From Salsipaludibacter albus (GTDB lineage Bacteria > Actinomycetota > Nitriliruptoria > Nitriliruptorales > Nitriliruptoraceae), in assembly GCF_019798055.1 (NCBI RefSeq), contig NZ_JAHOPH010000025.1, positions 1 through 56,493 of the forward strand: a DNA stretch of 56,493 nucleotides. The letters are read 5' to 3'. The notes under the pieces are model-generated. The model searched no databases and was not told the origin of the DNA. It saw only the letters and a list, made by a program, of their open reading frames with translations. Positions 18,465 to 41,011 of the stretch are shown in pieces; the first letter of the stretch is position 1, and every line of letters starts with the position of its first letter. The position numbers were made by a program, and so were the translations under genes.

Positions 18465-18672
18465 TGCGGCGCGTGTCGCGACCTGCACGATGTCATCCGC
18501 GATGGCCTCGTGGCAGTCTTCCTGCAGGAAGTGCTTGCGCGAGATCGCTCCAGGTCGGCCCGACCCCCGCATTCCGGGCTGTCAGACCGAGCCCCGGCAG
18601 GTCGTGGGAGATGCCACGGAACTCCCGAGCGGCCAGGTTGGGGAGCACCTTGCGGTACAGGAAGCTGCTGAG
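18465..18672 (-). pseudogene. Remnant of alpha/beta hydrolase (haloalkane dehalogenase-like)
   Basis: One frame reads LSSFLYRKVLPNLAAREFRG then ISHDLPGLGL, the region after the oxyanion loop of haloalkane-dehalogenase-like hydrolases. The next frame reads RKHFLQEDCHEAIADDIVQV, their extreme C-terminus. Everything between (nucleophile elbow, cap, catalytic acid) is deleted and the two parts are out of frame. Lies in the divergent gap between cupredoxin and ATPase. Confidence 0.6.
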
Positions 18673-18781
18673 GGGAGGCCTGGTTGGGCTGGGTCGCCCC
18701 GCGCTGGTGTCCTGTCGCTTCTTGGGAGGCGGGGCCCGTACAGGTAAGGGAAGCCTGACCGTCGTGGACTCGACGTGGGCA

Positions 18782-20764
18782 ATGCCGTACACCACCAGCA
18801 TGGACCGGTGGCGTTCGCTCGACCCCCTGCTGTTGGCCACGCTGGTCGTGGGCGGTTCGGCCCTGGCTGCCCAGCAGCTGGGCAGTCCTGACGTCGCAGC
18901 TGTCGTGCTGGTCGGCTTCACCGGGTTCATGGCAGCGCGCGAGGCTCGGGCGATGATGGCCAGCCTTCGGGCGGGCACGTGGGGCATCGACGTGCTGGCG
19001 GTGATGGCGATCGTGGCCACGCTCGCGGTGGGGGAGTACTGGGCGGCGTGGATCGTGGTCCTGATGCTGACTGGTGGACAGGAGCTCGAGGCGCAGGCAG
19101 CCGGCCGGGCACGTCGGGAGTTGCATGCGCTGCTGGAACGTGTGCCGACCGTCGCCCACCGGAGGACCGGCGACGGCCAGCTGGAGCAGGTTGCGGTCGA
19201 CGAGGTCGCCGTCGGCGACGTGCTGGTGGTGCGACCGGGCGAGGTCGTGGCCGTCGACGGTGTGCTGGTGGACGACGTCGCCGTCCTGGACGAGTCCCAG
19301 CTCACCGGGGAGTCGCTGCCAGTCGACCACGTTGCGGGTGACCACCTGTTGTCAGGGGCGATCAACGGCGCCGGTGCGCTCACGATGCGTGCGACTGCCT
19401 CGGCGCGTGACAGCCAGTACCAACGGATCGTGGAGCTGGTGCGCGAGGCGGCCGAGTCCAAGGCGCCGGTTGTCCGCCTGGCCGACCGGATCGCGGTCCC
19501 GTTCACCCTGTTCTCGGTGGCGCTGGCCGGTGGCGCATGGGCCGTGTCGGGCGATCCCACCCGCGTCGCCGAGGTGCTGGTGGTGGCCACGCCGTGCCCG
19601 CTGCTGATCGCGGCGCCGGTGGCCTTCCTGGCCGGGATGAGCCGATCATCACGCAACGGCATCATCGTCAAGGACGGCGGGACCCTCGAGCGGCTGTCCC
19701 GGCTGGCCACGGTCGCGTTCGACAAGACCGGGACCCTCACCCACGGGAGCCCGAGGCTGGCCCGGATCGTGCCGGGCCACGACACCGCCGCAGGCGTCGC
19801 GGGGGGCGGCCCGGGCAGTGAGGAGGTGCTGCAGCTGGCCGCCAGCGTGGAGCACCTGTCGACCCACGCCGTCGCCACCGCGATCGTGGCCACGGCCGAC
19901 CAACGGGGGGTGCCCCGTCGACCGGCCCACGATGCCCGCGAAGAGCTTGCGCACGGGATCTCGGCGACCGTCGATGGCCGCCGGGTCAGCGTCGGAAAGG
20001 CGTCCTGGATCGACCAGGTCTGCAGCGGGTTCCCGCACCCGGAGCTGGAGCCTGGCGAACTCGCGGTCCACGTCGCAGTCGACGACAGCTGGGCCGGTTC
20101 GCTGGTCCTGGCCGACGCCGTCCGCGCCGAGGCCGCTTCCGTGCTGTCCTGGCTGCGCGACACAGGTATCGCCCACCTGGTGGTGGTCACCGGAGACGGC
20201 GCCCGCACGGCCCACCACGTCGCCCGAGCCGTGGGAGTGGACGAGGTCCATGCCGACTGCCTACCCAGCGACAAGGTCGACCTGGTCTCCGGGATGGAAC
20301 ACCGCCCGGTGATGATGGTCGGGGACGGTGTCAACGACGCACCCGCCCTGGCGATGGCCGACGTCGGCGTCGCCATGGGCGCCCGCGGCTCCACGGCCTC
20401 CAGCGAGTCCGCCGACGTCGTGATCATGGTCGACGACCTGCGCCGGGTCGCCCTCGCCGTCTCGATCGGGCGGCACACCACCCGCGTGGCCCTGCAGGCC
20501 ATCGGACTGGGCGTGGCCCTGTCCGTCGCGCTCATGATCACGGCGGCATTCGGTCACCTGCCCGCCGTCGTCGGAGCCGCCCTGCAGGAAGTCGTGGACC
20601 TCGCCTGCATCCTGTGGGCCCTGCGCGCCACGCGGCCGGGCCGGCACGAGCCGCCGGCACAGCCCCGACCCGCGGAATCCCCTGGTCCATCGCCGTCCAG
20701 GCCACGGCGACGGACCATCGGGGACCAGGACGTGCCAGCCGACGGACGACCCGTCACGGAGTGA
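18782..20764 (+). CDS. P1B-type heavy-metal-transporting ATPase
   Basis: 660 residues. Four N-terminal membrane helices (about 10-110), actuator domain with LTGES, membrane pair with the metal-site motif ATPCPLLIAAP, phosphorylation site DKTGTLT, nucleotide-binding His in STHAVATA (where most P1B members have SEHP), hinge GDGVNDAPAL, and two C-terminal helices. The tail is Pro/Arg-rich. No N-terminal CxxC metal-binding domain is present. Exports a metal cation at ATP cost across the plasma membrane; metal specificity is uncertain because the motif is CPL and not CPC. Start is ambiguous: ATG MPYTT is taken, MDRW six codons later is possible. Divergent from a cupredoxin, which suggests copper. 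Confidence 0.88.
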   Translation: MPYTTSMDRWRSLDPLLLATLVVGGSALAAQQLGSPDVAAVVLVGFTGFMAAREARAMMASLRAGTWGIDVLAVMAIVATLAVGEYWAAWIVVLMLTGGQELEAQAAGRARRELHALLERVPTVAHRRTGDGQLEQVAVDEVAVGDVLVVRPGEVVAVDGVLVDDVAVLDESQLTGESLPVDHVAGDHLLSGAINGAGALTMRATASARDSQYQRIVELVREAAESKAPVVRLADRIAVPFTLFSVALAGGAWAVSGDPTRVAEVLVVATPCPLLIAAPVAFLAGMSRSSRNGIIVKDGGTLERLSRLATVAFDKTGTLTHGSPRLARIVPGHDTAAGVAGGGPGSEEVLQLAASVEHLSTHAVATAIVATADQRGVPRRPAHDAREELAHGISATVDGRRVSVGKASWIDQVCSGFPHPELEPGELAVHVAVDDSWAGSLVLADAVRAEAASVLSWLRDTGIAHLVVVTGDGARTAHHVARAVGVDEVHADCLPSDKVDLVSGMEHRPVMMVGDGVNDAPALAMADVGVAMGARGSTASSESADVVIMVDDLRRVALAVSIGRHTTRVALQAIGLGVALSVALMITAAFGHLPAVVGAALQEVVDLACILWALRATRPGRHEPPAQPRPAESPGPSPSRPRRRTIGDQDVPADGRPVTE

Positions 20765-26263: not shown

Positions 26264-26563
26264 TCACGTCAGACCTGATCCCTCGGCGTGGGACCGAGCG
26301 GCGTGGAGGATCCGCAGGACGTCAATCCAGTCCGGACGGTGCCGGTAGAACACGACGTGGGGGAACCCCCGGACAACGGCACGGCGGACGTCGGTGTAGC
26401 CGGCAACCAGCGGAGCGCTCCGAGGAAAGGCCTCCAGCCGGCTGAACACTTCGTCCAAGGCGTCGTCGAGGCGCCTGCCGAGTCCGTGCCTGGCCGAGTC
26501 GTGGTGGTCGCGAGCTGCGCGCAGGTCGGCCACCGCCCTGGGGCCGAGGGCAACCTCGGTCAC
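26264..26563 (-). CDS. RelE/ParE-superfamily toxin
   Basis: 99 residues. The layout LGPRAVADLRAARDHHDS, then LDDALDEVFSRLEAFPRSAP, VRRAVVRGFPHVVFYRHRP and DWIDVLRILHAARS follows the ParE/RelE fold (two N-terminal helices, then a beta sheet with the R-x-F-P-y-x-V-x-Y pattern). ParE members poison DNA gyrase; RelE members cut mRNA at the ribosome; this one looks nearer ParE. GTG overlaps the antitoxin stop by four bases, so it is made only with its antidote. Confidence 0.85.
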   Translation of the reverse strand: MTEVALGPRAVADLRAARDHHDSARHGLGRRLDDALDEVFSRLEAFPRSAPLVAGYTDVRRAVVRGFPHVVFYRHRPDWIDVLRILHAARSHAEGSGLT

Positions 26564-26811
26564 TCCGGCCACAGATCGGTGCGAACCTCGTCCCACGACC
26601 GACTCGCGTCCGGCTCACGATCCACGTCCGCGAGCGCCTCGTCGAGGAGGCGACGTTCTTCCTCGCTGGGCTCGTAGACCGGTTCACCGAAGTAGCGCCG
26701 CAACGCTTCCTGGAAGACCTCTGATCGGGATCGATGCTCGATCTCCCGCAGCCGCTCGACCATGTCGAACAACTCCTCGGGCAGGGTGACGGCGACCTTC
26801 TTCACGGCCAT
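26560..26811 (-). CDS. Ribbon-helix-helix antitoxin
   Basis: 83 residues. MAVKKVAVTLPEELFDMVER forms the DNA-binding ribbon and first helix, then RSRSEVFQEALRRYFGEP, then an acidic tail (YEPSEEERRLLDEALADVDR) that should wrap the toxin. GGAG six bases before the ATG. First gene of the pair, with a near-perfect palindrome just upstream as probable autoregulatory operator. Confidence 0.87.
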   Translation of the reverse strand: MAVKKVAVTLPEELFDMVERLREIEHRSRSEVFQEALRRYFGEPVYEPSEEERRLLDEALADVDREPDASRSWDEVRTDLWPE

Positions 26812-26848: not shown

Positions 26849-27083
26849 CTGCAGGCTGAGCGCGATCGTGGACACCCGAGGAGGTGCACCCGGTCGGTCC
26901 CGTCGGACATGTCGGGCCAGCTGGCCGGCCAAGCACGTGCGTTTGGGGTGTCATTGATCGCGGCCCTTTCCAGCCGTCCGCTGCAACGGCCCCGGGTGTA
27001 GGGTTGCCACGCAACTGCCACGGGGTGCCCGCAGTCTGGCACTGGACCGCAACACGGGTGCAACCGGGGCAAGGGGCGGCAGG

Positions 27084-30000
27084 ATGCTCGCGTACCGCGT
27101 ACTGGGAGCACTGGAGGTCCTCGACGAGGGCGAGGGCCTGCATGTCGGTGGCGCACGGCAGCGCCGCCTGCTGGCGATGCTGCTGGTGCACCGCAACGAG
27201 ACGGTCTCGACCGATCGGCTCGCGGAGGCCGTCTTCGCCGGCGATCCGACGCCGGCCGCGGACACGACCCTGCGCAGCTACGTCGCTCGCCTCCGTCGCG
27301 TGCTCCGTGACCACGTCGACCAGTCCGTGCTGGACACGCGGGCCCCCGGATACGTGCTCTGGGTGGGCGACGACTCGATCGATGCCGGCGTCTTCGAGCA
27401 ACTCGTCACCGAGGGGCGCGCCCTGCGAGCGGCCGACGACCCGATCGGCGCGGCGGCTGCCCTGCGACAGGCCATGGGGGCCTGGGGCGGAGATCCCTAC
27501 CCGGAGTTCGCCGACGAGGGCTGGGTGCGTCCCGAGGTCCAGCGACTCGACCGGCTTCGCCTCGCCGCCGAGGAGCACCTCCTGGACGCCGAGCTCGAAT
27601 GTGGCCTGGACGCGGAGCTGGTCGCACGACTGGAGACGCTGGTCGCACGGGATCCACTGGCGGAGTCGTTCCGGTCCAAGCTGATGGTGGCGCTGTATCG
27701 CAGCGGACGACAGGTCGACGCCCTTGGCGTCATGCACGAGTATCGCGAGGTCCTGGCCGACGGTGTCGGGCTGGACCCGTCCCCGGAGCTGGTCGAGTTG
27801 GAGCACCAGATCCTGGTCCATGACCAGGACCTGCAGCGGCCAGCGCCGCCCGGACGGGTGCTGCGCGGCTACCACCTCGGCGAACGGCTCGGAACCGGCC
27901 GTGACGGCACGGTCCACGCGGCCCGACTCCCCGGTGTCGACCGAGACCTGGCCATCCGGATCGTGCCGTCCGAGCTCGCCGACCGGCCCGATGTCGTCCG
28001 CTCGTTCGACGCGACCATGCGGCGGGTGGCGGCACTCCACCACGAGGCGGTCGTGCCGATCCACGACCACTGGCGCGAGCCCGGTGCCGCCTACGTGGTG
28101 ATGCGCCGCATGGAGGGAGGGTCGCTGCGCGATCGGCTCGAGCACGGTCCGTTGTCCGTTGCGGAGGCTGCGGCGCTCGCGAGGCGCGTGGGCCTGGCAC
28201 TCATGGCGGCCCACGAGCGCGGCGTCGTCCACGGACGGCTGGTCCCGGAGAGTGTCCTGCTGGACGGCGCGGGGACGCCCTACCTGTCCGACTTCCCGCT
28301 GGGTGATGTCGACCACGCCAGCGATGACGACGCCCGAGCCCTCGTTGCACTGGTGCTCCGGGCGCTCACGGGGGAGCCTGGTGTTGGCGGGCCTCGAACC
28401 GGGACCGCGGCCCTGCTCGAGGAGCTCCGAGCGCTTGCCTCGGAGCCTTCGAGGCCGTCGCTCGACGTCGTGGTCCCGATGCTGGTCGACCGGCTCGACC
28501 GAGCGGCAGGTCGGGCGCCGGACGGCGAGGCGGCTCGACGAGTCAACCCCTACAAGGGCCTGCGCGCGTTCGACGAGTCCGACGCGGCGGACTTCTTCGG
28601 ACGCGGCGACCTGGTCGAGGACCTCGTGCAGCGCCTGGCCGGCCACGGGCTCGCAGCTCGGCTCGCGCTGCTGGTGGGCGCGTCCGGCAGCGGCAAGTCC
28701 AGCGTCGTCCGCGCGGGGCTCCTGCCTCGCGTGCGTGCCGGTGCCGTCCCGCACTCCCAGGACTGGCTGGTCACCACGATCACGCCCGGCGCCCAGCCGT
28801 TCAAGGAGCTCGGACAAGGCCTGGCCCGGGTCGCCACCGCGTCCGCCAGCGGCCGGGACCGACGAACCACCGCCGACCTGGCGGATGAGCTCGCCCGTGA
28901 CGGGCTCGGGATCGACACCACGCTGCGACGCATCCTCCCGGACGAGGGACAGCTGCTCCTGGTGGTCGACCAGTTCGAGGAACTGTTCACGCTGGCCGGC
29001 GAGGACGAGCAGCGGCAGTTCCTCGACGGCCTCGTGCACGCCCTGGAGACGCCGGACAGCCGGTTGCGCCTCGTCACCACCCTCCGGGCCGACTTCTACG
29101 ATCGTCCCCTTCGCTTCCATCGCTTCGGAGCGATGGTTCGCGAGGCGACGGTCACGGTTCCCGCGATGCAGGCTGCGGACCTCGAGGCGACGATCGTCGG
29201 ACCGGCCCGGCGGGCGGGGCTGGACGTCGAGGCGCCGCTCGTCGCCGAGTTGGTCGCGGCCGTGATCGACCAGCCCGCCGCGATGCCGGCCCTGCAGTTC
29301 ACCCTGTACGAGTTGGCGCAACGGGCCGGCGGGGCCGGGCTGACCCTGGCCGGCTACCGAGAGATCGGCGGCGTCGGCGGCGCCATCGCGACCCGTGCGG
29401 AGGGCCTGTACCGCTCGCTCGACGACGACCGGGTGGAGGTCCGGCACCTGTTCGAGCACCTGGTGGTCATCGGCACCGAGGGCGAGCCGACACGTCGCCG
29501 CACCCCGCGCTCGGAGCTGGCGGCGCTCGTGCGTGGGAGGCCGGTCGACGAGGTGGTCGAACCGTGGGCACAGGCCCGGCTGCTCACCCATGACCGGCAT
29601 CCGCAGACTCGCGAGCCGACCGTCGAGGTGGCCCACGAGGCACTGGTGCGGGAATGGCCCCGCCTGCGGGACTGGATCGAGGAGGGCCGGGGTGCCATCG
29701 TGGCGTCGGGCCAACTCCGCATGGCCGCCGCCGAGTGGGAGGCCCTGCAACGAGACCCCGGAGCCCTGTACCGGGGTTCACGGCTCGACGGGGCCCTGGC
29801 CCAGCTCACCGGGAGTGAGGACCGGCTGCCGGCCGAGGCGCGAGAGTTCCTGGCTGCCAGCCGAGCCGCCCGGCACGAGGAGCAGCACCGGGAGGCCGAC
29901 CGAGTCGCCCGCCAGGCACGGACCAATCGGCGGCTGCGCCTCCAGCTCGGCGGCCTCGCCGTGGCCCTCGTGGTGGCGCTGGTCGGCGGATGGCTCGCCC

Positions 30001-32159
30001 TGGACCAGCGCCAGCGAGCACAGGGCGAGGAGCGCACGGCGGTGGCCCGGGAGCTGGCCGCGGCCTCCGTCGCCACCCTCGACGAGGACCCCGAGCTCAG
30101 CATCCTGCTGGCGCTGGCGGGCCTGGACCACACCCGGGCGGTCGACGGCACCGTGGTGCCCGAGGCGCATTCCGCGCTGCACGAGGCGGTCACCTCGTCA
30201 CGCGCCGTGCTGTCGGTGCCCGACCTCGGTGGTCCCGTGGACTGGAGCGCGGACGGCAGCACGTTCGTCACCGAGGGCCCCGAGGAGACCGGACTGGTCG
30301 ACATCCGCGACGCGGAGACCGGCGAGTCCGTCCTGGCGTTCACCGGTCACGACGTCGACATCAACGACGTGGTGTTCAGCGCGGACGGTGCGCTCGTGGC
30401 CACGGCGGGCGACGACGGCGCCGCCAAGGTCTGGGACGTCGACACCGGCCAGCAGGTGGCGTCGTTCTCCTACGACGGCGTCGTGCTGGGGCTGTCCTTC
30501 GACCCCGACGGCAGCCTGCTCGCGGCGTCCTGGCGGGACGAAGGACTGGTCCGGGTCCACGACCTCGAGCGGCAGGAGCTCGTGTCCGAGGTCGAGCTGG
30601 ACGCCAGCGGCACGTCGTTCGGCCCCGAGGGTCGGCTGGTGATCGCGGCCGGCCGCCAGGCGGTGGTCGTCGACACGACCACCGGTCAACGGCTCCTGGA
30701 GGTCACCCACCCGCGCGACGTCCCGAACCCACTCGGCTTCACCCCCGTCACGGCCGTGGCGTGGAGCCCGGACGGTCGCTGGATCGCGACCGGTGGCACG
30801 GATCGCGTGGCACGCGTGTGGAACGCCGACACCGGCGAACTGCGCGCGGCCCTGTCGGGGCACGGCGGCGGGATCGTCGACCTCGACTGGGCACACGACT
30901 CCGTCCACTTGGCGAGCGGGAGCGAGGACGGCTCGGCTCGTGTCTGGGCAGTGGCCGACGGGGGTGGCACGGAGCTGGTCCGTGTCGCGGCGCGCGAGAC
31001 GCAGGGCATCGTCACCGGGGTCGCCTTCTCCCCGAACGGCGATCGGCTCCTGACCGGGGACGGGGGGATCCGTGCGGCCAGGATCTGGGACGTGTCCACG
31101 TCGGGTGGCGCCGAGCACCGCAACCTGCCCGGCTCGCCGAACATCCCCGGGGCCGTTGACGTGGGCCCCGACGGCCGCACCCTCGTCGCGACCGGTGAGG
31201 GCGTGGCCGGGATCGTGTGGGACCTCGCCACCGGCGAGCAGCGCGCCACCCTCGGCCCGCAGGACCCGGACGCCACCGACCGGGAATCCTGGGAGATCGA
31301 CCTGAGTCCCGACGGGGAACTCGTCGCCACCGCACCCTTCGCGGGCCCGGTCCGGGTCTGGGACGTCCTGTCCGGCGACGAGGTGTTCACCGGCGACGAG
31401 TCCGTGTACATGGCCGACGCCGCGTGGACTGCCGACGGACGGCTGCTGGCGGCCACGGGCAGCACCCGCGACGCCGGCTGGACGACGATCTTCGACCGCT
31501 CCGGGGCCGTCGTCGCCCGGATCGACGAGGAGCCCGGCTTCACGCCGATCGGCGTCGACTTCGACCCCGAGGGCGACCGGCTGGTGACGACCCGCAGGCC
31601 GATCGGCCGGCTGCTCACGACGGTCGACGGGCTGGTCGTGCGGGACGTGGCCACCGGTGCGATCGTCCAACGCATGGCCGTGCCGTCCGGAGGCGCGATG
31701 TTCGATCCGACGGGTGACCGACTCGTGGCCGACGAGTTGGGCGCCGCGGCCGTCTGGGACCCGGAGACCGGGGAGGTCCTGGCGCGCCTCGAAGGCCACA
31801 CCGGCCAGGTCACGGACGCCGTGTTCCACCCCCGGGGACACACCGTGGCAACGGCCAGCCTCGACGGGACCATCCGGCTGTGGTCGAGCGAGACCGGTGC
31901 GCCCACGCTCGCGCTCCGTGGGCACGGCGGCCCCGCCGGGGGAGTGGCCTTCGGGCCCGACGGTGACCTCCTGGCGTCGAGCGGCGAGGGCGAGATCCGC
32001 GTCTGGACGCTCGACCTCGACGAACTGGTCGCGATCGCGACCAGTCGACTCACCCGTGGCTTCACCGACGTCGAGTGCCGCCAGTTCCTCCATGTCGAGC
32101 AGTGCCCGGACGAGGCGACGGATCCACGTCCATCCCCCGCGGCCTCGACTGCCACGTGA
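27084..32159 (+). CDS. SARP/BTAD-pseudokinase-STAND NTPase-WD40 giant regulator
   Basis: 1691 residues. Domains in order: OmpR-like winged helix (about 1-95, with LRSYVARLRRVLRD and APGYVLWV), BTAD helical repeats (about 100-250), a protein-kinase-like domain (about 263-450), an nSTAND1 NTPase (about 490-900; Walker A GASGSGKSS near 530, Walker B LLLVVDQFEEL near 622), a membrane helix (about 953-973, GGLAVALVVALVGGWLAL), and a C-terminal propeller with about fourteen WD40-like blades (for example ARVWNADTGEL, TIRLWSSETG). The kinase domain looks dead: VAIK Lys is Arg (LAIRIV), HRD is HGR and DFG is DFP. The membrane helix would place the propeller outside and the DNA-binding part inside if it is real. 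GGCAGG precedes the ATG. Confidence 0.88.
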   Translation: MLAYRVLGALEVLDEGEGLHVGGARQRRLLAMLLVHRNETVSTDRLAEAVFAGDPTPAADTTLRSYVARLRRVLRDHVDQSVLDTRAPGYVLWVGDDSIDAGVFEQLVTEGRALRAADDPIGAAAALRQAMGAWGGDPYPEFADEGWVRPEVQRLDRLRLAAEEHLLDAELECGLDAELVARLETLVARDPLAESFRSKLMVALYRSGRQVDALGVMHEYREVLADGVGLDPSPELVELEHQILVHDQDLQRPAPPGRVLRGYHLGERLGTGRDGTVHAARLPGVDRDLAIRIVPSELADRPDVVRSFDATMRRVAALHHEAVVPIHDHWREPGAAYVVMRRMEGGSLRDRLEHGPLSVAEAAALARRVGLALMAAHERGVVHGRLVPESVLLDGAGTPYLSDFPLGDVDHASDDDARALVALVLRALTGEPGVGGPRTGTAALLEELRALASEPSRPSLDVVVPMLVDRLDRAAGRAPDGEAARRVNPYKGLRAFDESDAADFFGRGDLVEDLVQRLAGHGLAARLALLVGASGSGKSSVVRAGLLPRVRAGAVPHSQDWLVTTITPGAQPFKELGQGLARVATASASGRDRRTTADLADELARDGLGIDTTLRRILPDEGQLLLVVDQFEELFTLAGEDEQRQFLDGLVHALETPDSRLRLVTTLRADFYDRPLRFHRFGAMVREATVTVPAMQAADLEATIVGPARRAGLDVEAPLVAELVAAVIDQPAAMPALQFTLYELAQRAGGAGLTLAGYREIGGVGGAIATRAEGLYRSLDDDRVEVRHLFEHLVVIGTEGEPTRRRTPRSELAALVRGRPVDEVVEPWAQARLLTHDRHPQTREPTVEVAHEALVREWPRLRDWIEEGRGAIVASGQLRMAAAEWEALQRDPGALYRGSRLDGALAQLTGSEDRLPAEAREFLAASRAARHEEQHREADRVARQARTNRRLRLQLGGLAVALVVALVGGWLALDQRQRAQGEERTAVARELAAASVATLDEDPELSILLALAGLDHTRAVDGTVVPEAHSALHEAVTSSRAVLSVPDLGGPVDWSADGSTFVTEGPEETGLVDIRDAETGESVLAFTGHDVDINDVVFSADGALVATAGDDGAAKVWDVDTGQQVASFSYDGVVLGLSFDPDGSLLAASWRDEGLVRVHDLERQELVSEVELDASGTSFGPEGRLVIAAGRQAVVVDTTTGQRLLEVTHPRDVPNPLGFTPVTAVAWSPDGRWIATGGTDRVARVWNADTGELRAALSGHGGGIVDLDWAHDSVHLASGSEDGSARVWAVADGGGTELVRVAARETQGIVTGVAFSPNGDRLLTGDGGIRAARIWDVSTSGGAEHRNLPGSPNIPGAVDVGPDGRTLVATGEGVAGIVWDLATGEQRATLGPQDPDATDRESWEIDLSPDGELVATAPFAGPVRVWDVLSGDEVFTGDESVYMADAAWTADGRLLAATGSTRDAGWTTIFDRSGAVVARIDEEPGFTPIGVDFDPEGDRLVTTRRPIGRLLTTVDGLVVRDVATGAIVQRMAVPSGGAMFDPTGDRLVADELGAAAVWDPETGEVLARLEGHTGQVTDAVFHPRGHTVATASLDGTIRLWSSETGAPTLALRGHGGPAGGVAFGPDGDLLASSGEGEIRVWTLDLDELVAIATSRLTRGFTDVECRQFLHVEQCPDEATDPRPSPAASTAT

Positions 32160-32272
32160 TTGCCACACCACGATCGCATACTCGCGCCCTGGGTCGTCGT
32201 GGTGGCGGGACGCCGGCACGGTCCTCGAGGTCGACCACACACGGTGCCCGTTCGCGACGTGAGGAAGCGCAC

Positions 32273-32743
32273 ATGCGATCATCGACGGTTCAGCTCATCA
32301 CCCTTGCCACGGTCGTCGCGTTGGTGGCCTGCGGGGACGCCAGCCCGGGAGCCGCGTCGACGCCTGACGCCACGTCGGCAACGCCCGTGGCCACGGCGGA
32401 CTCACCGACCAGCGAGGCCGCGGCCGTCGCGATCGAGGCGAAGGCCCTCGAGTGGCACTACACGCCCGATGCATGGACGGTTGCTGCCGGAGAAGCATTC
32501 ACCCTCGAGTTCAACAACGCCGGGGGCGTCGAACACGACTGGACGGCCCTGAAGTTGGAGGAGGACATCGAGAAGTTGGCCGAATTCGAGGAGAGCAAGG
32601 TGTTGTTGGAGGTTGCGGAGGTGCCGAGCCACGAATCGCGGACCGAGACCTTCACGATCGAAGAGCCAGGCACCTATCAGGTGATCTGCACGGTCTCGGG
32701 CCATTTCAACACGGGCATGGCAGGAACCCTGACGGTCGAGTAG
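32273..32743 (+). CDS. Cupredoxin-like lipoprotein (paralogue 2)
   Basis: 156 residues. Lipoprotein signal MRSSTVQLITLATVVALVAC (lipobox LVAC), a long Ala/Thr/Ser linker, then the same fold as the protein at 17.9-18.4 kb: WHYTPDAWTVAAGEAFTLEF, His in VEHDW, and QVICTVSGHFNTGM for Cys, His and Met copper ligands. The two mature domains share most motifs, e.g. ESxTxTFTIxEPGTYQVIC. GAGGAAG precedes the ATG. It is 113 bp downstream of the STAND giant in the same direction and may be co-transcribed. Confidence 0.88.
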   Translation: MRSSTVQLITLATVVALVACGDASPGAASTPDATSATPVATADSPTSEAAAVAIEAKALEWHYTPDAWTVAAGEAFTLEFNNAGGVEHDWTALKLEEDIEKLAEFEESKVLLEVAEVPSHESRTETFTIEEPGTYQVICTVSGHFNTGMAGTLTVE

Positions 32744-33088: not shown

Positions 33089-34333
33089 GTGACCAAGGCA
33101 ATCCCACGCCGAACAGCCTTCTCGCTGGTATTCGGCCTCATCCTCGTGGCATCGATGCTGGTGGCTCCGCCCCCTGCCGACGCCGCCCAATTCATCTCGC
33201 ACAGTTCACACGCCTGGGGCAGTCATGCTCGGGTGCTCGGGGGCACCGTCCTCAGCGGAACGACCGCGCGTGTCGGTCTCACTGGATGCGCGGAGACCGG
33301 CGCATCGCAGGACAATGCCGTTGCGTCCGCGGACCTGGGTGTCGGTTCCGTCGACGCCGTCTCATCCGAGACCTACTCCTACGCCGAGGACGGCGTCGAG
33401 GGGGTGTACAGCCACAACGAGATCGCCGGCGTGAGCCTGTTGGGCGGTGAGATCGAGATCGGCGCGATCGAGTCCACCGTCGAGGTCAGGCAACTCAGTG
33501 ACGGGACGTTCGAGACCGAGGCCGACACGTCGGTCGCGAGCCTGACCATCGGCGACGACGAGATCGAGATTCTCGGTGGCCCACAGGTCCTGCGCATCGC
33601 CGGCCTCGCCACGATCTCGCTCAACCGCACCGTCGAGACGACGGAGGACGACTTCGGTCGGGCGGCCGCGACCGCCGTGACCATCCGCCTGGCCGACGGC
33701 ACCGACACCGTGGTGCGCCTCGGACGGTCCTACGCCCGTACCGATTCCGTGGAGGTCGACCGCCTGCTGGGTGGCTGGGCCAACGGCAGCGTGGTCCGCG
33801 CCTTCGACGGCACGATCGACTCGGGCCCGACCGCCAACAGCGGCGTGCCGTGCATCGGCAGCGAGGGCAACCCGCTCACGACCTCGATCGCAAGCGTCGA
33901 CGTGGGCGTGGCGGAGCTGGACACCGTCGTCTCGACGACCACCAGCGACGTCAGCCCGTCCTACGTCACGGCCACCAACACCATCGAGTCGGTCTCGCTG
34001 CTCAACGACCTGGTGACGCTCGAGGCCATCTCGGTCGAGGTCCACGCCGAGGTCAACGAGTCCGGTGAGCTGGAGAAGACGTCGACGGCGAGCCTCGGCA
34101 GCATCACGCTCAACGCCGGGCCGATCCCGGTGGACATCCCGGTCCCCGAGCTGGGTGGCTCCGTCGACATCCCCGGTGTCGGCACGCTGACACTCCACGA
34201 GGAGATCAACAACCCGAACGGCATCCGGATCGAGGCCTACGCGGTGTCGATCGACCTGCTCGAGGCGGTCGGTGGGGGGGTGACCATCGAGCTCGCTCGC
34301 GCCCGCGCAGTCCTGCGGGACCCGCCCGCCTGA
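33089..34333 (+). CDS. Secreted choice-of-anchor P-like protein with internal duplication
   Basis: 414 residues with a signal peptide (RRTAFSLVFGLILVASMLVA, cleavage near ADAAQF). The mature part is beta-rich and duplicated: the first copy has SADLGVGSVDAVSSETYSYA and VSLLGGEIEIGAIESTVEVR, the second SVDVGVAELDTVVSTTTSDV and VSLLNDLVTLEAISVEVHAE, each followed by a long strand-rich extension. This resembles actinobacterial choice-of-anchor P proteins, which are surface or sporulation-linked; no sorting motif is visible. GGAG precedes the GTG start. Its last 97 bases overlap the end of the convergent BY-kinase gene. It sits at the edge of the exopolysaccharide locus. Confidence 0.7.
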   Translation: MTKAIPRRTAFSLVFGLILVASMLVAPPPADAAQFISHSSHAWGSHARVLGGTVLSGTTARVGLTGCAETGASQDNAVASADLGVGSVDAVSSETYSYAEDGVEGVYSHNEIAGVSLLGGEIEIGAIESTVEVRQLSDGTFETEADTSVASLTIGDDEIEILGGPQVLRIAGLATISLNRTVETTEDDFGRAAATAVTIRLADGTDTVVRLGRSYARTDSVEVDRLLGGWANGSVVRAFDGTIDSGPTANSGVPCIGSEGNPLTTSIASVDVGVAELDTVVSTTTSDVSPSYVTATNTIESVSLLNDLVTLEAISVEVHAEVNESGELEKTSTASLGSITLNAGPIPVDIPVPELGGSVDIPGVGTLTLHEEINNPNGIRIEAYAVSIDLLEAVGGGVTIELARARAVLRDPPA

Positions 34334-36189
34334 TCCTCGCGACCCCCGGACGGGGCCAGTTCCTCGTCCATCGCCGGGTCGTCCGACGCCACCCCGTCGC
34401 CATCCCCGGCCCCCGGCAGCCCGGCGCCACGCCGGATCTCCGGTGACTCGGACTGGTCGTCGGCGTTCCGGCGCGATCGACGTGACCGGCGCGAGCGTCG
34501 GCCACCCTCGTCCTGCGGCTGGGCCCGGTACTCGTAGGCCCGCTGGTAGTAGTGGTAGGCGTTGGACGTCTGGTCCAGGTCGTTGACCACCAGGCCGGAC
34601 ACCACGGCGCGGACCGAGTCGAGCCGCTCGAGGGCGTCGTGCAGGGCCCGGCGACGGGACGTGCCGGCCCGGACCACCATCAGCACCGCGCTGACCTTCG
34701 GCGCCATCTCGAGGGCGTCCGAGACGGCCAGGACGGGTGGTCCGTCCAGGACGACCAGGTCGGTGCGCTCGCACAGGAACCGGACCAGCGAACGCATCCG
34801 GCCCGAGGCCAGCAGGTCGGACGGGTTCGGCGGGAGGGTCCCTGCCGGGAGCACCCGCAGGTTGTCCACCCCGATGTCGACCAGGACGTCGTCCACCTCG
34901 ACGTCGCCCGCGATGACGTCGGACAGCCCCATGCCCGCCGGGATGCCGAAGCGGTCGTGGATCGTCGGACGACGCATCTCGGCGTCGACCATGACGACCC
35001 GCATGCCCGCCCGGGCCGCCGACACGGCGAGGTTGCCCGCGGTCGTGCTCTTGCCGTCGCCGGGGTCGGGCGACGTCAGCAGGACGGCCCGACCGATGCC
35101 GTCGGTGTCGTGCTCGGACCAGGGGTCGTCGGGTTCGTCGCCGTCGTCGCGCCCGTGGGCGGCGAGCAGGAAACGGACCCCGGCCGAGAGCGCGCGGTAG
35201 GCCTCGGCGGGCGGACCCTGGGGGTCGACGATGGTCGCCAGGCGACGGCCCTCGTCGCTGTGGGGGATGCGGCCGAGCACCGGGAGCTGGCGGCCGGCGC
35301 GGCGCGCGTCGTCCTCGTCACGGATGACGTCGTCGAGGTGGTCGCGCAGGAAGGCCAGCCCGATCCCGAGCATCAGGCCGAGCAGGAGGGCGAGGATCGC
35401 GTTGCGCACGGGCCGCGGTGAGGCGGGTGTGTCGGGCACCTGCGCGGCATTGAGGACCTGCCCACCACCCTTGAGGAGTCGGGCGCCGACCTCGGCCTGG
35501 GCGGACTGGTTCGCCACGTCGCTCATCTGGGCGAGGAGGGAGGCTCGTTCGGCCGCCAGCGCTGCCACGGCGGGGTCCGCGCTGGGCGCCGGCTCGATCC
35601 CGACGTCCTCCAGCGGGTTGGACTCCGACACCAGCTCGGCCAGCTCCTCCTCGATCTCGGTGAGCCGCTCGGCCATCGCCTCGCGCCGGTCGCCCAGCGT
35701 GCGCTGGGCCGCCAGCAAGGAGGCGACCGCCTCGTCCCGGCGGTGGGCGAGGTAGTTGGCGGCGAAGGCGTCGGCGAGCTCGGCTGCCATCTCGGGATCG
35801 GGATCGCTGACCCGCACCTGCAGGACGCGGGTGTCGGGGACGACGGTCACCCGCACCTGGTCGAGCAGGTCGTCGGCGGACCGATCGAGCTCCAGCTCGT
35901 CGACGACCCGGTCGCTGACGGTGCGGGACGCGAGCACCCGTCGTTCGGTGTTGACGGTGGTGTCGCCCAGGACGATCTCCTCCAGGGACGCGTCGGAGGC
36001 CTGCTGGAACGGCTCGACCACCACCTCGGTCGTCGCCTCGTACACCGGCACGGTGTATCGGGTCGCGGCCAGGCCCAGCACGAACACCAGCGCAGTGACG
36101 GCCAGGACCGTCCACGTGCGGCGCCGGAGGACCTGCAGGACGTGTCCCAGCTCGAGCAGGGGTTCGTCGGGGGGCGCGGACGTCGTCAT
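34237..36189 (-). CDS. Wzz-type chain-length regulator fused to BY-kinase
   Basis: 650 residues. Wzz domain: helix 1 (VLAVTALVFVLGLAATRYTV), a long coiled periplasmic-type loop, and helix 2 (NAILALLLGLMLGIGLAFLR, about 270). Then a tyrosine autokinase: Walker A SPDPGDGKSTTAGNLA, Walker A' VVMVDAEMRRP, Walker B DLVVLDGPP. A tyrosine cluster follows (NAYHYYQRAYEYRAQ), then an unusual 90-residue tail rich in Arg, Ser, Asp and Gly. In known systems cycles of Tyr phosphorylation set polymer length together with Wzy. ATG shares one base with the stop of the polymerase (TGATG). The start is preferred because the Wzz helix follows directly. Confidence 0.9.
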   Translation of the reverse strand: MTTSAPPDEPLLELGHVLQVLRRRTWTVLAVTALVFVLGLAATRYTVPVYEATTEVVVEPFQQASDASLEEIVLGDTTVNTERRVLASRTVSDRVVDELELDRSADDLLDQVRVTVVPDTRVLQVRVSDPDPEMAAELADAFAANYLAHRRDEAVASLLAAQRTLGDRREAMAERLTEIEEELAELVSESNPLEDVGIEPAPSADPAVAALAAERASLLAQMSDVANQSAQAEVGARLLKGGGQVLNAAQVPDTPASPRPVRNAILALLLGLMLGIGLAFLRDHLDDVIRDEDDARRAGRQLPVLGRIPHSDEGRRLATIVDPQGPPAEAYRALSAGVRFLLAAHGRDDGDEPDDPWSEHDTDGIGRAVLLTSPDPGDGKSTTAGNLAVSAARAGMRVVMVDAEMRRPTIHDRFGIPAGMGLSDVIAGDVEVDDVLVDIGVDNLRVLPAGTLPPNPSDLLASGRMRSLVRFLCERTDLVVLDGPPVLAVSDALEMAPKVSAVLMVVRAGTSRRRALHDALERLDSVRAVVSGLVVNDLDQTSNAYHYYQRAYEYRAQPQDEGGRRSRRSRRSRRNADDQSESPEIRRGAGLPGAGDGDGVASDDPAMDEELAPSGGREDQAGGSRRTARARASSMVTPPPTASSRSIDTA

Positions 36190-37763
36190 CAGGGCCTCCG
36201 GGGGGTGGACGAGGCTGGTCGGTCGGTCGTTTCGGCTGTCGGCACGTCCGTCCGATCCGCTCGGACGAGCAGCAGGAGGACCACGACGAGCACCCCCTCC
36301 TGGAGCACGGAGGCGACCGCGTCGGTGACCTCCGAGAACGGCAGGCGGACGACGACGGCGGTCGTCCCGATCGCGTAGCACAGTGCCGCGATGCCGGCGG
36401 CGCGGCCCCGCTCGGTCCGCCAGTCGTCGATCGTGCGGATGGCCAGCCCCCACACGAGCGCGCCGACGCCGACGCCCAGGACGCCGAAGTTGATCCACAG
36501 CTCACCGAGGATCCCGGGTGGCACGCCCGTCCGGCGCTCCTCGCTCTGCCCGAAGACCGGTGCCCCGAGCTGCGGGCCGAGGCGCACCGGCGGCTTGTCC
36601 TCCCACAGTGTCCGTGGCACGGCGGCGTAGGTCCACGACACCATCGAGCGCCCGTACTGGTACGGGAACTGCTCGGGGACACGTTGCACGACCATGCCCG
36701 TGACCCCCACCGACAGGGACTTGCCGGACGCGACGGCGGTGCTGATCGACCGCCCGAGGCCCAGTGGATCGGCCGCCAGGTCGACCCCGCGCTGGTTGGC
36801 CGCGCGCACACCCTGGAGCGCAACGGCGGCCACGAAGCCCAGGACGAAGACCGTCACCAGCGTCTTGACCGAGGGCTCGCGCCGGCGCAGCGCGACCCAC
36901 ACCAGCAGGGCCCAGACGACCGGGACCATGATGGTGGTGCGCGAACTGAGGAAGTAGCCCTGGTAGGCCACGAGGAGGAACGACAGCAGGGTCACGGCGG
37001 CCAGTGGCGAGCGCCACGACAGGTGCCAGCGCTGGAGCGTGAACCACCCCAGGAGGAAGGCAGCCGACGACACCGACATCCCCAGCCGGTGGACGCCCAG
37101 GACGGTGAACTCGCTCGCACCCAGGTCGACCACCCGCTTGCGGGACGCCAGCAGGTCGGCCACCGACAGCGAGTTCGTGCGCTCGGCCAGCAGCAGCGTG
37201 AACAGCAGGCTGAGCAGGCACGCGACCAGGACCACGACGACGACCCGCCGTGGGGCCGGATCCCCGAGCCCGGTGCGTGCAACCCGCCTGATCACCCGCG
37301 TGCCGAACCGCTGGGCCGGGTCCCGCCGCGGCCACAGCCATCCCACCAGCAGGAGCAGCACGGCACCGGCGACCACGACCAGGCCGAGCGTGATCATGCC
37401 CACGGTGAGGTCGGGGAGGAAGTCCGAGCTCCCGGCGAGGTCGGGTGCGTACTGGGCCCACACGGTCTGGCCGAGCACGCCCATGACCATCAGCACGGTC
37501 AGCACGAACAGCGGGTGGGACAGGCGTCGGGACCCCTGCACCACCATGACCGAGACCGGCATCGCGGTGGTCGCGGCGGCCACGGCGAGGTTGAGCTCGG
37601 TGATGGACCGGGTTACGAGGAAGGCCGCGACGGCCGCGACGGCCACCATGCCCAGGACGGCCGCGACGCCCGCGACCAGCAACCCGGCGCCGTCGTGGCG
37701 ACCGCCTCGGAGGCCGGGTGCGTCACCGAGGCGTGGCGTGGTGGCCAGGACACCGCCACTCAT
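36189..37763 (-). CDS. O-antigen/exopolysaccharide polymerase (Wzy-like)
   Basis: 524 residues with about twelve hydrophobic helices and one large hydrophilic loop (about 330-420) containing QYGRSMVSWTYAAVPRTLWE and DKPPVRLGP. This pattern (the loop with RE/RT-LWxxKPP) is seen in Wzy-type and oligosaccharide repeat unit polymerases. It should join repeat units on the outer face of the membrane. It overlaps the chain-length regulator by one base, so the two form one operon. Sequence alone does not exclude an O-antigen ligase. Confidence 0.78.
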   Translation of the reverse strand: MSGGVLATTPRLGDAPGLRGGRHDGAGLLVAGVAAVLGMVAVAAVAAFLVTRSITELNLAVAAATTAMPVSVMVVQGSRRLSHPLFVLTVLMVMGVLGQTVWAQYAPDLAGSSDFLPDLTVGMITLGLVVVAGAVLLLLVGWLWPRRDPAQRFGTRVIRRVARTGLGDPAPRRVVVVVLVACLLSLLFTLLLAERTNSLSVADLLASRKRVVDLGASEFTVLGVHRLGMSVSSAAFLLGWFTLQRWHLSWRSPLAAVTLLSFLLVAYQGYFLSSRTTIMVPVVWALLVWVALRRREPSVKTLVTVFVLGFVAAVALQGVRAANQRGVDLAADPLGLGRSISTAVASGKSLSVGVTGMVVQRVPEQFPYQYGRSMVSWTYAAVPRTLWEDKPPVRLGPQLGAPVFGQSEERRTGVPPGILGELWINFGVLGVGVGALVWGLAIRTIDDWRTERGRAAGIAALCYAIGTTAVVVRLPFSEVTDAVASVLQEGVLVVVLLLLVRADRTDVPTAETTDRPASSTPRRP

Positions 37764-37995
37764 GTCGGCGTGCCCGCGGCCGGGGGCTGGACGCGTCGCG
37801 ATCCCACACGATCCTCCGCAGGGTCGTCGGCATCGACGCCGTGCCCGCCCGCGGGTCGTCGACGACTGGTGCGCCAGTCATCCTAGGCACCATCGGGGGC
37901 GGCGTCGCGGCTACGGTCGTGACGAGGCGGTCCTGCGCCCGGGACGGGGGTGACCACACACCGCCCCTGCCGTCGTGGGAACGGAAGGGGTTCGC

Positions 37996-38850
37996 ATGGC
38001 GAATCCGGCGCTGGCCAAGTTCGTGCTCGACACGTTGCTGGCCCGAGGGCACCTCCAACGCGACCACCGGGTCCTGGCCGTGTGTGCCGGCCAGTTCGAC
38101 CGTCGCCTGTTCGAGGTCGTCGGGATGCCGGCCGTGACCCTGACCAACCTCGACGTCGAGGTCGGGTCCCGCCGCGAGGGCGAGCAGGCCGGTGGCGACG
38201 CCCCCTGGCTCCAGGCAGACGCCCACGACCTGCCCTTCGCCGACGGCGAGTTCGACGTCGCGTGGGTCAGCGACGGCCTGCACCACTGCCACTCGCCCCA
38301 CCGGGCCCTGGCCGAGATGCATCGGGTGAGCCGTCGGTGCGTCATCGCGCTGGAGAGTCGGGACTCGGTGGCCATGCGGGTCGCGACCCGGCTCGGGGTC
38401 GTGCACGACTACGAGGCGAACCAGCGCCTGCTCGCCACGCGCGAGCACGGCGGCAAGGACTTCGGCCCGGTGCCGAACTTCGTGTACCGCTGGACCGAGC
38501 GGGAGTTCACCAAGACGATGCTGGCGCTCGCTCCCGAACGGCGCATGGCCTTCGACTACTTCCACGCCCTGCGGCTGCCGGCCCGGTCCGGCCGGGTCGT
38601 GCGGACGGTCGGGGAGGCGGTGTTCCGCATGGCCCCGGGCCAGGGCAACAGCCTGGGGATGGTCGCGCGGCGGGGCGACCACCAGCCTTGGCTGGCCACC
38701 GGCGACGGCGGCCTGCGCCTGGCCGACGACGTCACGACCCGGGCTGACGTGGTCGGCCCGCGGCCCCGGGTGCACCACCACGTGCTGCGCGGGACGGACC
38801 GCTGGCACGGGTGGCCGCCGGGGCAGCGGGTCGACGTGGACGACCACTGA
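37996..38850 (+). CDS. SAM-dependent methyltransferase (class I)
   Basis: 284 residues. The Rossmann core shows VLAVCAGQFDRRLFEV (motif I variant lacking the usual GxGxG), LQADAHDLPFADGEFDVAWV and SDGLHHCHSPHRALAEMHRV, the ubiE-like order. The C-terminal half (VPNFVYRWTEREFTKTMLAL) is specific to sugar or lipid methyltransferases of polysaccharide loci. GGAAGGGG precedes MANPAL, so this start is preferred over one seven codons upstream. It ends directly against the flippase start; substrate unknown, likely a sugar of the repeat unit. Confidence 0.82.
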   Translation: MANPALAKFVLDTLLARGHLQRDHRVLAVCAGQFDRRLFEVVGMPAVTLTNLDVEVGSRREGEQAGGDAPWLQADAHDLPFADGEFDVAWVSDGLHHCHSPHRALAEMHRVSRRCVIALESRDSVAMRVATRLGVVHDYEANQRLLATREHGGKDFGPVPNFVYRWTEREFTKTMLALAPERRMAFDYFHALRLPARSGRVVRTVGEAVFRMAPGQGNSLGMVARRGDHQPWLATGDGGLRLADDVTTRADVVGPRPRVHHHVLRGTDRWHGWPPGQRVDVDDH

Positions 38851-40119
38851 ATGGGGAGCACCCGGTCGAGCTGGCGTGACCGCCTGCGGCAGGCACGGAC
38901 CCGGCGGGTCGCGTGGGGCATCGCGGACCAGGGCCTCTTCACGCTCACCAACTTCGTGATGACCGTGGTGGTCGCGCGCCTCGTGTCGTCGCGCGCCTTC
39001 GGTGCCTATGCCCTGGTGATCTCGATCTCGGTGATGCTCCAGGGCGGGACCCAGAGCCTGGTGGCCGAGCCACTGGCCGTGCGATTCAGCCGACCGGACG
39101 GGCGCGAGGTGCGCGCCGCCGTCCGGGGTGCGACCGGCCTGGCCCTGGCGATCGGCGTGGTGGGGTCGGTCGGGATGACCGCGTGGGGGTTGGGATTCCC
39201 CTCGACGGCGACCGGTGCCCTGCTGGGCATGAGCCTGGTCCTGCCCGCGGTCCTGGTCCAGAACGTGTTCCGGTACTCGCTCGTCGCCCAGGGGCGGGCC
39301 CGCGAGGCCTTCCTCAACGACGTCGCCTGGGCGGTCACCCAGGCGATCGCCACGGTCGTGGTCCTGCTGGTCGTCGGACCGCGGGTGGGCCCGCTGGTCG
39401 TGGCGTGGGGGATCGGTGGGCTGGTCGGCGCGATCGTCGGGGCGTGGCAGGTCCGGGTCGTTCCGGCCCCGACCGCGGGCCTGGCGTGGTTCCGCTCCCA
39501 TCGCGACCTCGGGCTGCCCTACCTCGGGGAGTACCTGGCGACCAACGGGTCGGGACAGGCCACCATGTGGATCGTCGGGCTGGCCGCCGGACTGTCCGAG
39601 CTGGCCTGGTTCCGGGGCGGCTGGACACTGCTCGGCCCCGTGATGGTGCTCACGGCAGGCCTGCGCATGGTGCTCGTCCCCGAGGCGGCGAGGGTGGCCG
39701 GGCGGCGTCCCGCCGGGCTCGAGCGCCTGGCCCGGATGGCGTCGGCGGGTGCGGGACTCGCGACGCTGGCATGGGGGGCGATCTTCCTGGTCGTCCCGGA
39801 CGCGGTCGGCGTGCAGCTGCTGGGGGCCACGTGGGCCGGCGCGAGCCTGGTGGTGGCCCCCCTGCTCGTCCAGCGGCTCGGACTGTCGCTGGCGCTCGGT
39901 CCGTTCGTGGGCCTGCGGGGCCTGGCCGATGCACGACGCACGATGGTGACCCGGACCGGGGTCGGGGTGCTGTCCCTGGCACTCGGCGCGATCGGGGCCG
40001 TGGTGGGCGGGGCCGTCGGTGCCGCGACCGGTCTGGCCGTCGCGCAGGTGCTCGCGCTGCCCGCGTGGTGGCACCTGTTCCGGGTGAGCCGTCGCGAGGC
40101 GGCAGTGGCGGTCGGCTGA
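38851..40119 (+). CDS. Polysaccharide flippase (Wzx-like)
   Basis: 422 residues with about twelve hydrophobic helices. The N-terminal pattern AWGIADQGLFTLTNFVMTVV then ARLVSSRAFGAYALVIS is typical of the MOP-superfamily PST/Wzx exporters. Role in the pathway: flips lipid-linked repeat units across the membrane to the polymerase. Starts immediately after the methyltransferase stop (TGA-ATG), so it is co-transcribed with it. With Wzy and Wzz in the neighbourhood it completes the Wzx/Wzy-dependent set. Confidence 0.87.
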   Translation: MGSTRSSWRDRLRQARTRRVAWGIADQGLFTLTNFVMTVVVARLVSSRAFGAYALVISISVMLQGGTQSLVAEPLAVRFSRPDGREVRAAVRGATGLALAIGVVGSVGMTAWGLGFPSTATGALLGMSLVLPAVLVQNVFRYSLVAQGRAREAFLNDVAWAVTQAIATVVVLLVVGPRVGPLVVAWGIGGLVGAIVGAWQVRVVPAPTAGLAWFRSHRDLGLPYLGEYLATNGSGQATMWIVGLAAGLSELAWFRGGWTLLGPVMVLTAGLRMVLVPEAARVAGRRPAGLERLARMASAGAGLATLAWGAIFLVVPDAVGVQLLGATWAGASLVVAPLLVQRLGLSLALGPFVGLRGLADARRTMVTRTGVGVLSLALGAIGAVVGGAVGAATGLAVAQVLALPAWWHLFRVSRREAAVAVG

Positions 40120-40164
40120 CCACGTCGGTCGTGGTCACGCTGGCGCCGGTTGCGGGCAGAGCCG

Positions 40165-41010
40165 TCAGGCGGACTCCCCGACCCACCGGTGGAGTCGGTC
40201 CGCCCCGAACACCTCGGCCAGGTGGCGTGCGAGGTCGTCGTCGACCTCGGCCCGCCACCCCACGGCACTGCCGCGCCGCATGGTCGGGGATCCCGTCCAG
40301 CCGATCCAGGTCCCTGCCTCGGCCACGAAGACCTCGTCGTCGGGCGGGGTGAGCCCGAGCAGGGTCGCGACCCGGGCCAGGGCCTCGTCCGCACGCTCGG
40401 CCGACGCGACCAGGTCCTCGAACCGCAGGGTCAGGTCGGCCCCGGAGAGCCAGCCCTCGTGGTGGTCGTAGCGATCGGCCAACGGCTCGAGCCCCCTGTC
40501 CCCGTCACGTGCGGCGACCCCGGTCATCGAGGCAAGGATCGCGTCGGGCAGCGACATCGCCTGCCAGCGTCGGTGCAGCCGATGGCGGGGCAGCCGACGG
40601 ACGTAGTGCGCATGGCTGACCGCGACGGCCCGGGGGTCCCGGTGGATGAACAGGGTGTGCACGTCGTGCGTCGCGAACGTGTCCCGCAGTCGGGGCGACC
40701 AGGGGTGGTGCAGGGTCATGAACTGCCCGGGGCGCAGCGTCGCGAGCGCCCGGTCCAGAGCGGACAGGTCCGGACCACTGCGGTCGTCCGCGAGGTCGCC
40801 GGGGACCAGGTGGACGTGGGCGTCCGCCACCTGGCCGGTCCCGGCGAGCACGCTGGTCAGCAGGTGGGTCCCTGCCTTCGGGATGCTGATGATGGCGACC
40901 CGGCAGTCGGCTCGGCCGGTCCGCCAGCGGCTGGCCAGCGCGAGCAGGCGGCGGCCGAGCCGGTGCAGGGTCGGGGACCGGGCGACGAGCCGGTAGGAGA
41001 GCCGGGCCAC
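40165..41010 (-). CDS. Sulfotransferase 1
   Basis: 281 residues. The 5'-phosphosulfate loop SIPKAGTHLL (about 42-51) and the 3'-phosphate motif HRDPRAVAVSHA mark a PAPS-dependent sulfotransferase. LRFEDLVAS and a terminal catalytic-domain helix follow. Known chemistry: moves sulfate from PAPS to a hydroxyl, here probably of the polysaccharide. Begins one base after the stop of sulfotransferase 2, so three minus-strand genes (glycosyltransferase and the two sulfotransferases) form one operon. Confidence 0.85.
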   Translation of the reverse strand: MARLSYRLVARSPTLHRLGRRLLALASRWRTGRADCRVAIISIPKAGTHLLTSVLAGTGQVADAHVHLVPGDLADDRSGPDLSALDRALATLRPGQFMTLHHPWSPRLRDTFATHDVHTLFIHRDPRAVAVSHAHYVRRLPRHRLHRRWQAMSLPDAILASMTGVAARDGDRGLEPLADRYDHHEGWLSGADLTLRFEDLVASAERADEALARVATLLGLTPPDDEVFVAEAGTWIGWTGSPTMRRGSAVGWRAEVDDDLARHLAEVFGADRLHRWVGESA

Positions 41011-41011
41011 C

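Follow-up and report, generated by a model that had tools for sequence, protein, structure and literature searches.

The window is the whole stretch of 56,493 nucleotides analysed here, and it comprises an entire contig of a draft genome that totals 4.25 Mb in 79 contigs. An open reading frame at 27084-32159 on the forward strand, with its ATG at 27084 and its stop codon at 32157-32159, encodes a protein of 1691 amino acids; the GC content of this frame by codon position is 0.80/0.51/0.89. From the N to the C terminus, the protein consists of a SARP region, a kinase-like domain, an nSTAND1 NTPase, one membrane helix and two WD40 propellers. Pfam matches include BTAD at residues 99-244 (E 6e-39), Pkinase at 263-406 (a weak match, E 5e-13), nSTAND1 (PF20703) at 489-892 (E 3.7e-108) and WD40 repeats. 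Both these matches and relatives with the same domain order confirm the reading of the first-pass annotation, made from the letters of the window alone, that the frame encodes a single fusion protein. A chance open reading frame can be excluded, because the same order recurs in relatives from many genomes and dN/dS is well below 1 in every domain. The closest named relative of the genome is a Nitriliruptorales metagenome assembly, which places the host in this actinobacterial group and contains a congeneric orthologue (L083, the same locus as L060). At L060 6598-12627 this orthologue is split by two frameshifts in the assembly, and dN/dS is well below 1 in all of its parts.

The nSTAND1 NTPase (28548-29759) is modelled with confidence and, as had been noted earlier, has intact Walker motifs: Walker A, GASGSGKS, lies at residues 532-539 (28677-28700) and the end of Walker B, DQFEELF, at 629-635 (28968-28988).

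Downstream, at 32273-32743 on the forward strand, lies a gene for a cupredoxin-domain lipoprotein of 156 amino acids (Pfam Cupredoxin_1 and Copper-bind; lipobox VALVACG). This is the sole neighbour that is kept in the congeneric genome, where the protein is 76% identical. Around this locus, similarity to the congeneric genome spans only 26997 to about 32750, leaving aside a cross-match of the two cupredoxin copies. No cupredoxin gene was found as a neighbour at the other loci of the family, save for a weak, non-adjacent match at one of them (L132). The second cupredoxin lipoprotein copy of the window, at 17949-18362 on the reverse strand, is divergent from a P-type metal ATPase gene with a TPC motif (18353-20764, forward strand).

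Several other genes of the window may be noted. A ParE-type toxin gene (PF05016; 26264-26596, reverse strand) is divergent from the SARP gene, and just upstream of it is a gene for an 83-residue protein resembling a ribbon-helix-helix antitoxin (26560-26811, reverse strand); this toxin-antitoxin pair (26264-26811) was not found beside the congeneric orthologue. A phage-type integrase gene at 15734-16636 on the forward strand suggests a past insertion nearby. The cluster at 34237-45711, which encodes a Wzz-like protein, a sulfotransferase, a glycosyltransferase and methyltransferases, is perhaps involved in surface polysaccharide synthesis. Elsewhere in the same genome (G000), there are at least six more SARP-STAND paralogues (contigs C10, C11, C16, C32 and C54), one with a pseudokinase and the others without a kinase domain.

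Degradation and retention of the kinase-like domain

The kinase-like domain occupies residues 258-486 (27855-28541). Alignment with relatives confirms all three motif changes that had been read from the sequence at first: the ATP-anchoring Lys is replaced by R292 (within LAIR; 27957-27959), HRD has become H383-G384-R385 in the catalytic loop HGRLVPES (383-390; 28230-28253), and DFG has become D403-F404-P405 (28290-28298). The degradation is, however, greater than was listed then. The alphaC Glu is T311, the catalytic-loop Asn is S390, and the activation segment and the APE motif are deleted after DFP, leaving 13 residues from the DFG Asp to the alphaF Asp, where nearly all intact relatives have 34-51. 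All residues expected of an active Hanks-type kinase are thus altered or missing, save the Asp and Phe of DFG.

In a survey of 92 related kinase domains, a domain was scored as intact when the Lys, Asp, Asn and DFG-Asp were all kept. Among the 49 SARP-fused kinases (order SARP-kinase-STAND), 37 are catalytically intact and 12 are degraded in differing ways, whereas all 43 SARP-less kinases are intact (Fisher p = 3e-4); this contrast is confounded by lineage, in that the SARP-less STAND-bearing kinases are nearly all from Chloroflexota and the degraded ones all from Actinomycetota. The Lys-to-Arg change, the HGR motif and the loop deletion are common to the 1691-residue protein, its congeneric orthologue, a same-genome paralogue and one further relative. 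In a quick tree of the STAND domains, a supported group unites the 1691-residue protein with its orthologue and the paralogue L029, and the pseudokinase label needs six changes, two of which are forced by well-supported branches. An active kinase is thus widespread in the SARP-kinase-STAND family, where degradation has probably occurred more than once. The first-pass annotation had reckoned with intact homologues that would make this protein a lone decayed copy. Intact homologues are indeed common, but the changes themselves are shared; on this comparison, the degradation in the 1691-residue protein is inherited and no private accident. The protein is therefore not a lone decayed copy, and the family as a whole is not one of pseudokinases.

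It had also been suggested that the dead kinase is retained as a structural part, and the data agree with this. When the two congeneric genomes are compared, the kinase core (residues 258-404) is 77% identical with a dN/dS of 0.22 (NG86) or 0.12 (YN00), like the SARP region (0.20/0.10) and the STAND domain (0.21/0.10), which indicates purifying selection. The end of the C-lobe (405-486) drifts faster, at 54% identity. In an AlphaFold model of residues 250-892 (mean pLDDT 91.4, pTM 0.89), the kinase-like domain is folded, with pLDDT mostly above 90. The best Foldseek matches of the pseudokinase are structures of Mycobacterium tuberculosis PknI (5m09 and 5m06; about 22% identity), which, in contrast to the domain studied here, is a separate kinase fused to neither SARP nor STAND. 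A WRE/WRG motif, here DHWREPG (328-334), is present in 12 of 12 STAND-linked kinases, which were found without use of that motif, and in none of 16 other kinases. Active and dead kinases alike, including every pseudokinase of the family examined, have retained the motif, which suggests a structural or coupling surface that is independent of catalysis.

Alternatively, the pseudokinase could be debris that no longer has a function itself and is on its way to being deleted. The kinase losses are scattered over the tree, and the same-genome paralogues L027, L028, L030 and L031 are without a kinase domain entirely, as this explanation would predict. It is nevertheless quite unlikely, as the core is under purifying selection equal to that of the neighbouring domains, the predicted fold is confident and the WRE/WRG motif is kept in the pseudokinases of the family. 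Retention as a folded part is the reading that we follow below; pseudokinases are known in other bacterial multidomain systems (PMC7159879).

The membrane helix and the location of the propellers

The hydrophobic helix at residues 955-973 (29946-30002) has a Kyte-Doolittle value of 2.33 and is the sole region of the protein above 1.5. In an AlphaFold model of the helix and propeller part (pLDDT 89.6, pTM 0.82), it sits within one continuous 81-residue helix (917-997; 29832-30074; pLDDT of its blocks 81-94), a long rod that, judging by its pattern, appears not to be packed in a soluble fold. Among the relatives whose sequences are of sufficient length, all but two have the same helix about 50-95 residues past the STAND domain. 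The membrane helix that had been thought probable is thus supported, and the pattern of the model does not suggest the burial that might have spoken against it.

Three features bear on the topology. First, the N-terminal flank of the helix is at least as positively charged as the C-terminal flank in all 65 relatives that have the helix, with mean net charges of +3.6 and +0.1, respectively (Wilcoxon p 6e-12, the relatives not being independent). Second, C1665 and C1674, a candidate disulfide pair in CRQFLHVEQC (32076-32105), are the only cysteines after the helix; at least two cysteines occur in the last 70 residues of 45 of 60 complete relatives, against 3.1 expected from random placement, and the number of cysteines after the helix is even in 45 of the 60 (p 7e-5, again among relatives that are not independent). 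In the two relatives that lack the helix, the cysteine pair is also absent. Third, and most telling, an extracellular solute-binding domain (SBP_bac_1) stands in the place of the WD40 part after the same helix in two relatives, L107 and L123, and in L030, a paralogue from the same genome. Because of the charge asymmetry, the cysteine pair and these swaps, we infer that the SARP, kinase and STAND domains lie inside and the propellers outside (N-in/C-out). The subfamily of the SBP domains in L107, L123 and L030 could also hint at ligands.

The WD40 part, at residues of about 1041-1642 (30204-32009) and predicted to be extracytoplasmic, had been taken for one propeller; in the structure search it turns out to be two in tandem, with 2ymu and Apaf-1 (3shf, 3sfz) as the best Foldseek matches. 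Apaf-1, the best STAND protein among the matches of the propeller part, resembles the protein in combining a STAND NTPase with tandem WD40 propellers, but it is soluble, acts in apoptosis, has a CARD effector and lacks both a membrane helix and a DNA-binding head.

WD40 propellers are mostly cytoplasmic, which counts against an outside location, and Apaf-1, the best-known STAND protein with tandem propellers, is soluble. It is therefore conceivable that the helix is interfacial or buried, that the propellers are cytoplasmic and that the protein works as an AfsR-like switch that is soluble or peripheral. We regard this as highly unlikely in view of the hydrophobic core, which is uniform over 19 residues and has no second of its kind in the protein, the charge asymmetry without exception, the cysteine pair, the SBP domain at the same place in relatives and the long helical rod of the model. 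The earlier idea of a membrane-bound sensor is accordingly upheld as regards the predicted helix and the signs of topology, and sensing would probably take place outside.

The DNA-binding head and its candidate operators

The SARP region (residues 1-250; 27084-27833), made up of an OmpR-type winged helix and BTAD, aligns over residues 2-250 to the structures of AfsR and EmbR, and AfsR (8hvr) is matched with an E value of 8e-32 over residues 1-256. As read off the alignment, R87, R92 and R94 in the recognition helix of AfsR correspond to R64, R69 and R71 here, while K95, T88 and W74 correspond to R72, S65 and F51. The BTAD match, this alignment and the conserved DNA-contacting arginines all agree with the original description of a DNA-binding/BTAD regulator, which the protein is predicted to be.

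SARP sites are direct repeats at a pitch of 11 or 22 bp (PMC4393881; PMC10936776). Such a repeat, TGCCACGCAACTGCCACG, lies at 27005-27022 on the forward strand, 61 bp before the ATG, and consists of the heptamer TGCCACG twice at an 11-bp pitch, with CAAC in between (candidate operator 1). Nowhere else does the 4.25 Mb genome contain the exact pattern TGCCACG-N4-TGCCACG. Upstream of the congeneric orthologue the repeat is identical, although as inherited DNA the two genomes do not count as independent for this site. Candidate operator 2 (TGCCACG-TGAT-TGCCACA, forward strand), at 32150-32167, overlaps the stop codon and lies 105 bp before the lipoprotein gene. It has one mismatch here and is exact at the corresponding position of the congeneric genome, which contains just two exact matches, one before the orthologue and the other before its cupredoxin gene. 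With up to one mismatch, the pattern occurs 16 and 11 times in the two genomes; since a reversed control pattern gives 9 and 8, single-mismatch sites elsewhere are probably mostly due to chance.

A -10-like TAGGGT/TAGGAT is found just upstream of the repeat at site 1 and a weak -10-like CATACT/CACACT just downstream of the repeat at site 2; across the operators of the family, no consistent -10 element (TANNNT) was found 8 bp past the 3' repeat. A third operator target was sought in shared DNA, ten loci being compared per genome; the one other match of the pattern falls inside a long coding frame and was rejected. There is no Rfam match that would indicate a structured RNA near the gene.

The same spacing recurs in the group. 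An exact heptamer repeat at an 11-bp pitch is present in the 300 bp upstream of 19 of 51 SARP genes, compared with 0-2 for pitches of 8-10 and 12-20 bp, 1.35 (maximum 5) for shuffled sequences, 1 of 51 for the first 300 coding bases and 2 of 37 for SARP-less relatives. The other 32 genes have no exact repeat of this kind, and the method misses degenerate sites. The heptamers differ among most SARP loci, as is expected of protein-specific sites. We read the repeats as candidate operators of the present gene and as a sign of autoregulation throughout the SARP family of this group. Moreover, the cupredoxin gene is the best candidate target of the SARP-STAND regulator, because it has candidate operator 2 in front of it and is the only conserved neighbour; no operator-like repeat was found upstream of the second cupredoxin copy. 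As a separate observation, heptamer repeats at a 12-bp pitch occur upstream of 8 of 37 SARP-less kinase-STAND genes of Chloroflexota, where they are perhaps operators of HTH_31-type heads or chance similarities among close relatives.

The first-pass annotation had doubted whether the SARP part could bind DNA while tethered. The candidate operators largely answer this doubt, as does the precedent of CadC and ToxR, CadC being a tethered winged-helix regulator that locates its site by diffusion and capture (PMC6320335). A different solution would be proteolytic release, in which an outside signal would cause the protein to be cut close to the membrane, so that the SARP-pseudokinase-STAND part is set free and regulates in soluble form. 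The hydrophobic helix beside a long helical rod could serve as a cleavage site, and proteolysis controls other membrane regulators, TcpP among them (PMC11323476). However, CadC and ToxR bind DNA while tethered, and neither a cleavage motif nor a conserved protease neighbour was seen, the cupredoxin gene alone being conserved. We consider release unlikely and favour tethered binding.

STAND NTPases, propellers and degraded kinases recur in bacterial conflict systems (PMC7159879), and the first-pass annotation had mentioned immunity and signalling as the fields in which STAND proteins act as ligand-triggered switches. In an immune role, the protein would be an NLR/Avs-like switch that responds to invasion by killing or arresting the cell, the SARP being a side module. 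This is hardly probable, and nothing in the analysis speaks for phage defence. Pfam detects no toxic effector domain in the protein, and the N-terminal effector position is taken by a DNA-binding activator with operator-like repeats of its own. The PADLOC matches of the protein are to kinase models only, and its neighbours have no convincing match to a defence model, the one marginal case being an SduA match to a response regulator (E 3.5e-4). Conserved defence neighbours are likewise absent between the congeneric genomes, where only the cupredoxin gene is kept.

Proposed mechanism and relation to known regulators

Our preferred explanation, which we consider likely, is a ToxR/CadC-like single-pass, membrane-bound one-component regulator whose SARP-STAND core resembles that of AfsR. 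Outside the cell membrane, the tandem propellers would sense a ligand or a state, and the signal would cross the membrane via the long helix to the cytoplasmic nSTAND1 domain. This domain would switch from a closed state to one that has ATP bound and is probably oligomeric. In AfsR, the SARP is freed from autoinhibition when the NOD binds ATP (PMC10936776). Clustering of the STAND domains could then pair the SARP winged helices on the direct repeats spaced by 11 bp, and the paired heads would contact RNA polymerase as in AfsR. The pseudokinase would not phosphorylate but may serve as a folded rigid coupler or interaction surface derived from an active ancestor. Two promoters are the proposed targets, one belonging to the gene itself and the other to the adjacent gene for the extracytoplasmic cupredoxin lipoprotein; for the latter, activation and repression are alike conceivable.

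AfsR of Streptomyces coelicolor, a large SARP with the order SARP-NOD-TPR, shares with the protein an N-terminal SARP (E about 1e-30), a STAND-type switch, a C-terminal repeat sensor and direct repeats at an 11-bp pitch (PMC10936776). It differs in having an NB-ARC-type NOD and TPRs, which are absent here and replaced by nSTAND1, the membrane helix and WD40, and it has neither a kinase domain nor, as described, a membrane helix. AfsR is phosphorylated by a separate membrane-associated kinase, AfsK (PMC1262709), whereas here the kinase module is in the same chain as the SARP and is dead in this branch. ToxR and CadC likewise have an OmpR-type winged helix inside, one membrane helix and a sensor outside, as is predicted here, and CadC contains a periplasmic disulfide (PMC3096576) and binds DNA in the membrane (PMC6320335). 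However, a STAND NTPase, BTAD, a kinase-like domain and a propeller are all missing from ToxR and CadC, and signs of common ancestry are seen at most in the winged-helix fold. The kinase-nSTAND1-TM-WD40 proteins of Chloroflexota (many loci, L085-L160) have the same kinase-STAND-helix-propeller order, but their catalytic residues are intact in all those sampled and their N-terminal part is HTH_3/HTH_31 or absent. As HTH_3/HTH_31 takes the place of the SARP in these relatives (checked in two), a DNA-binding head recurs.

Each domain of the protein is already known, and the combined architecture is apparently undescribed. No paper joining BTAD/SARP, nSTAND1, WD40 and a membrane helix was found in a search that covered few subscription journals, and the SARP review PMC10972967 makes no mention of a membrane-bound or kinase-containing SARP class. 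For the broader proposition, we see about an even chance: that these proteins form an apparently undescribed class of transmembrane STAND receptors, widespread in Actinomycetota and Chloroflexota, with tandem propellers or a solute-binding domain as an interchangeable outside sensor, a cytoplasmic STAND switch, a SARP or HTH as an interchangeable DNA-binding head acting on its own promoter and a built-in kinase, repeatedly a pseudokinase in the SARP branch, as a coupler.

If the proposed mechanism is true, an AfsR-type STAND activator and a ToxR/CadC-type membrane regulator would be joined in one molecule, and a STAND switch would operate across the membrane with its sensor outside, an arrangement of which the papers searched gave us no description. 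Within one architecture the kinase is active, dead or absent, a natural series that allows the role of a pseudokinase to be tested by comparison. In addition, the operator sequence and the cupredoxin neighbour make the proposal directly testable, and with it a possible link of the regulator to the extracytoplasmic copper or redox state.
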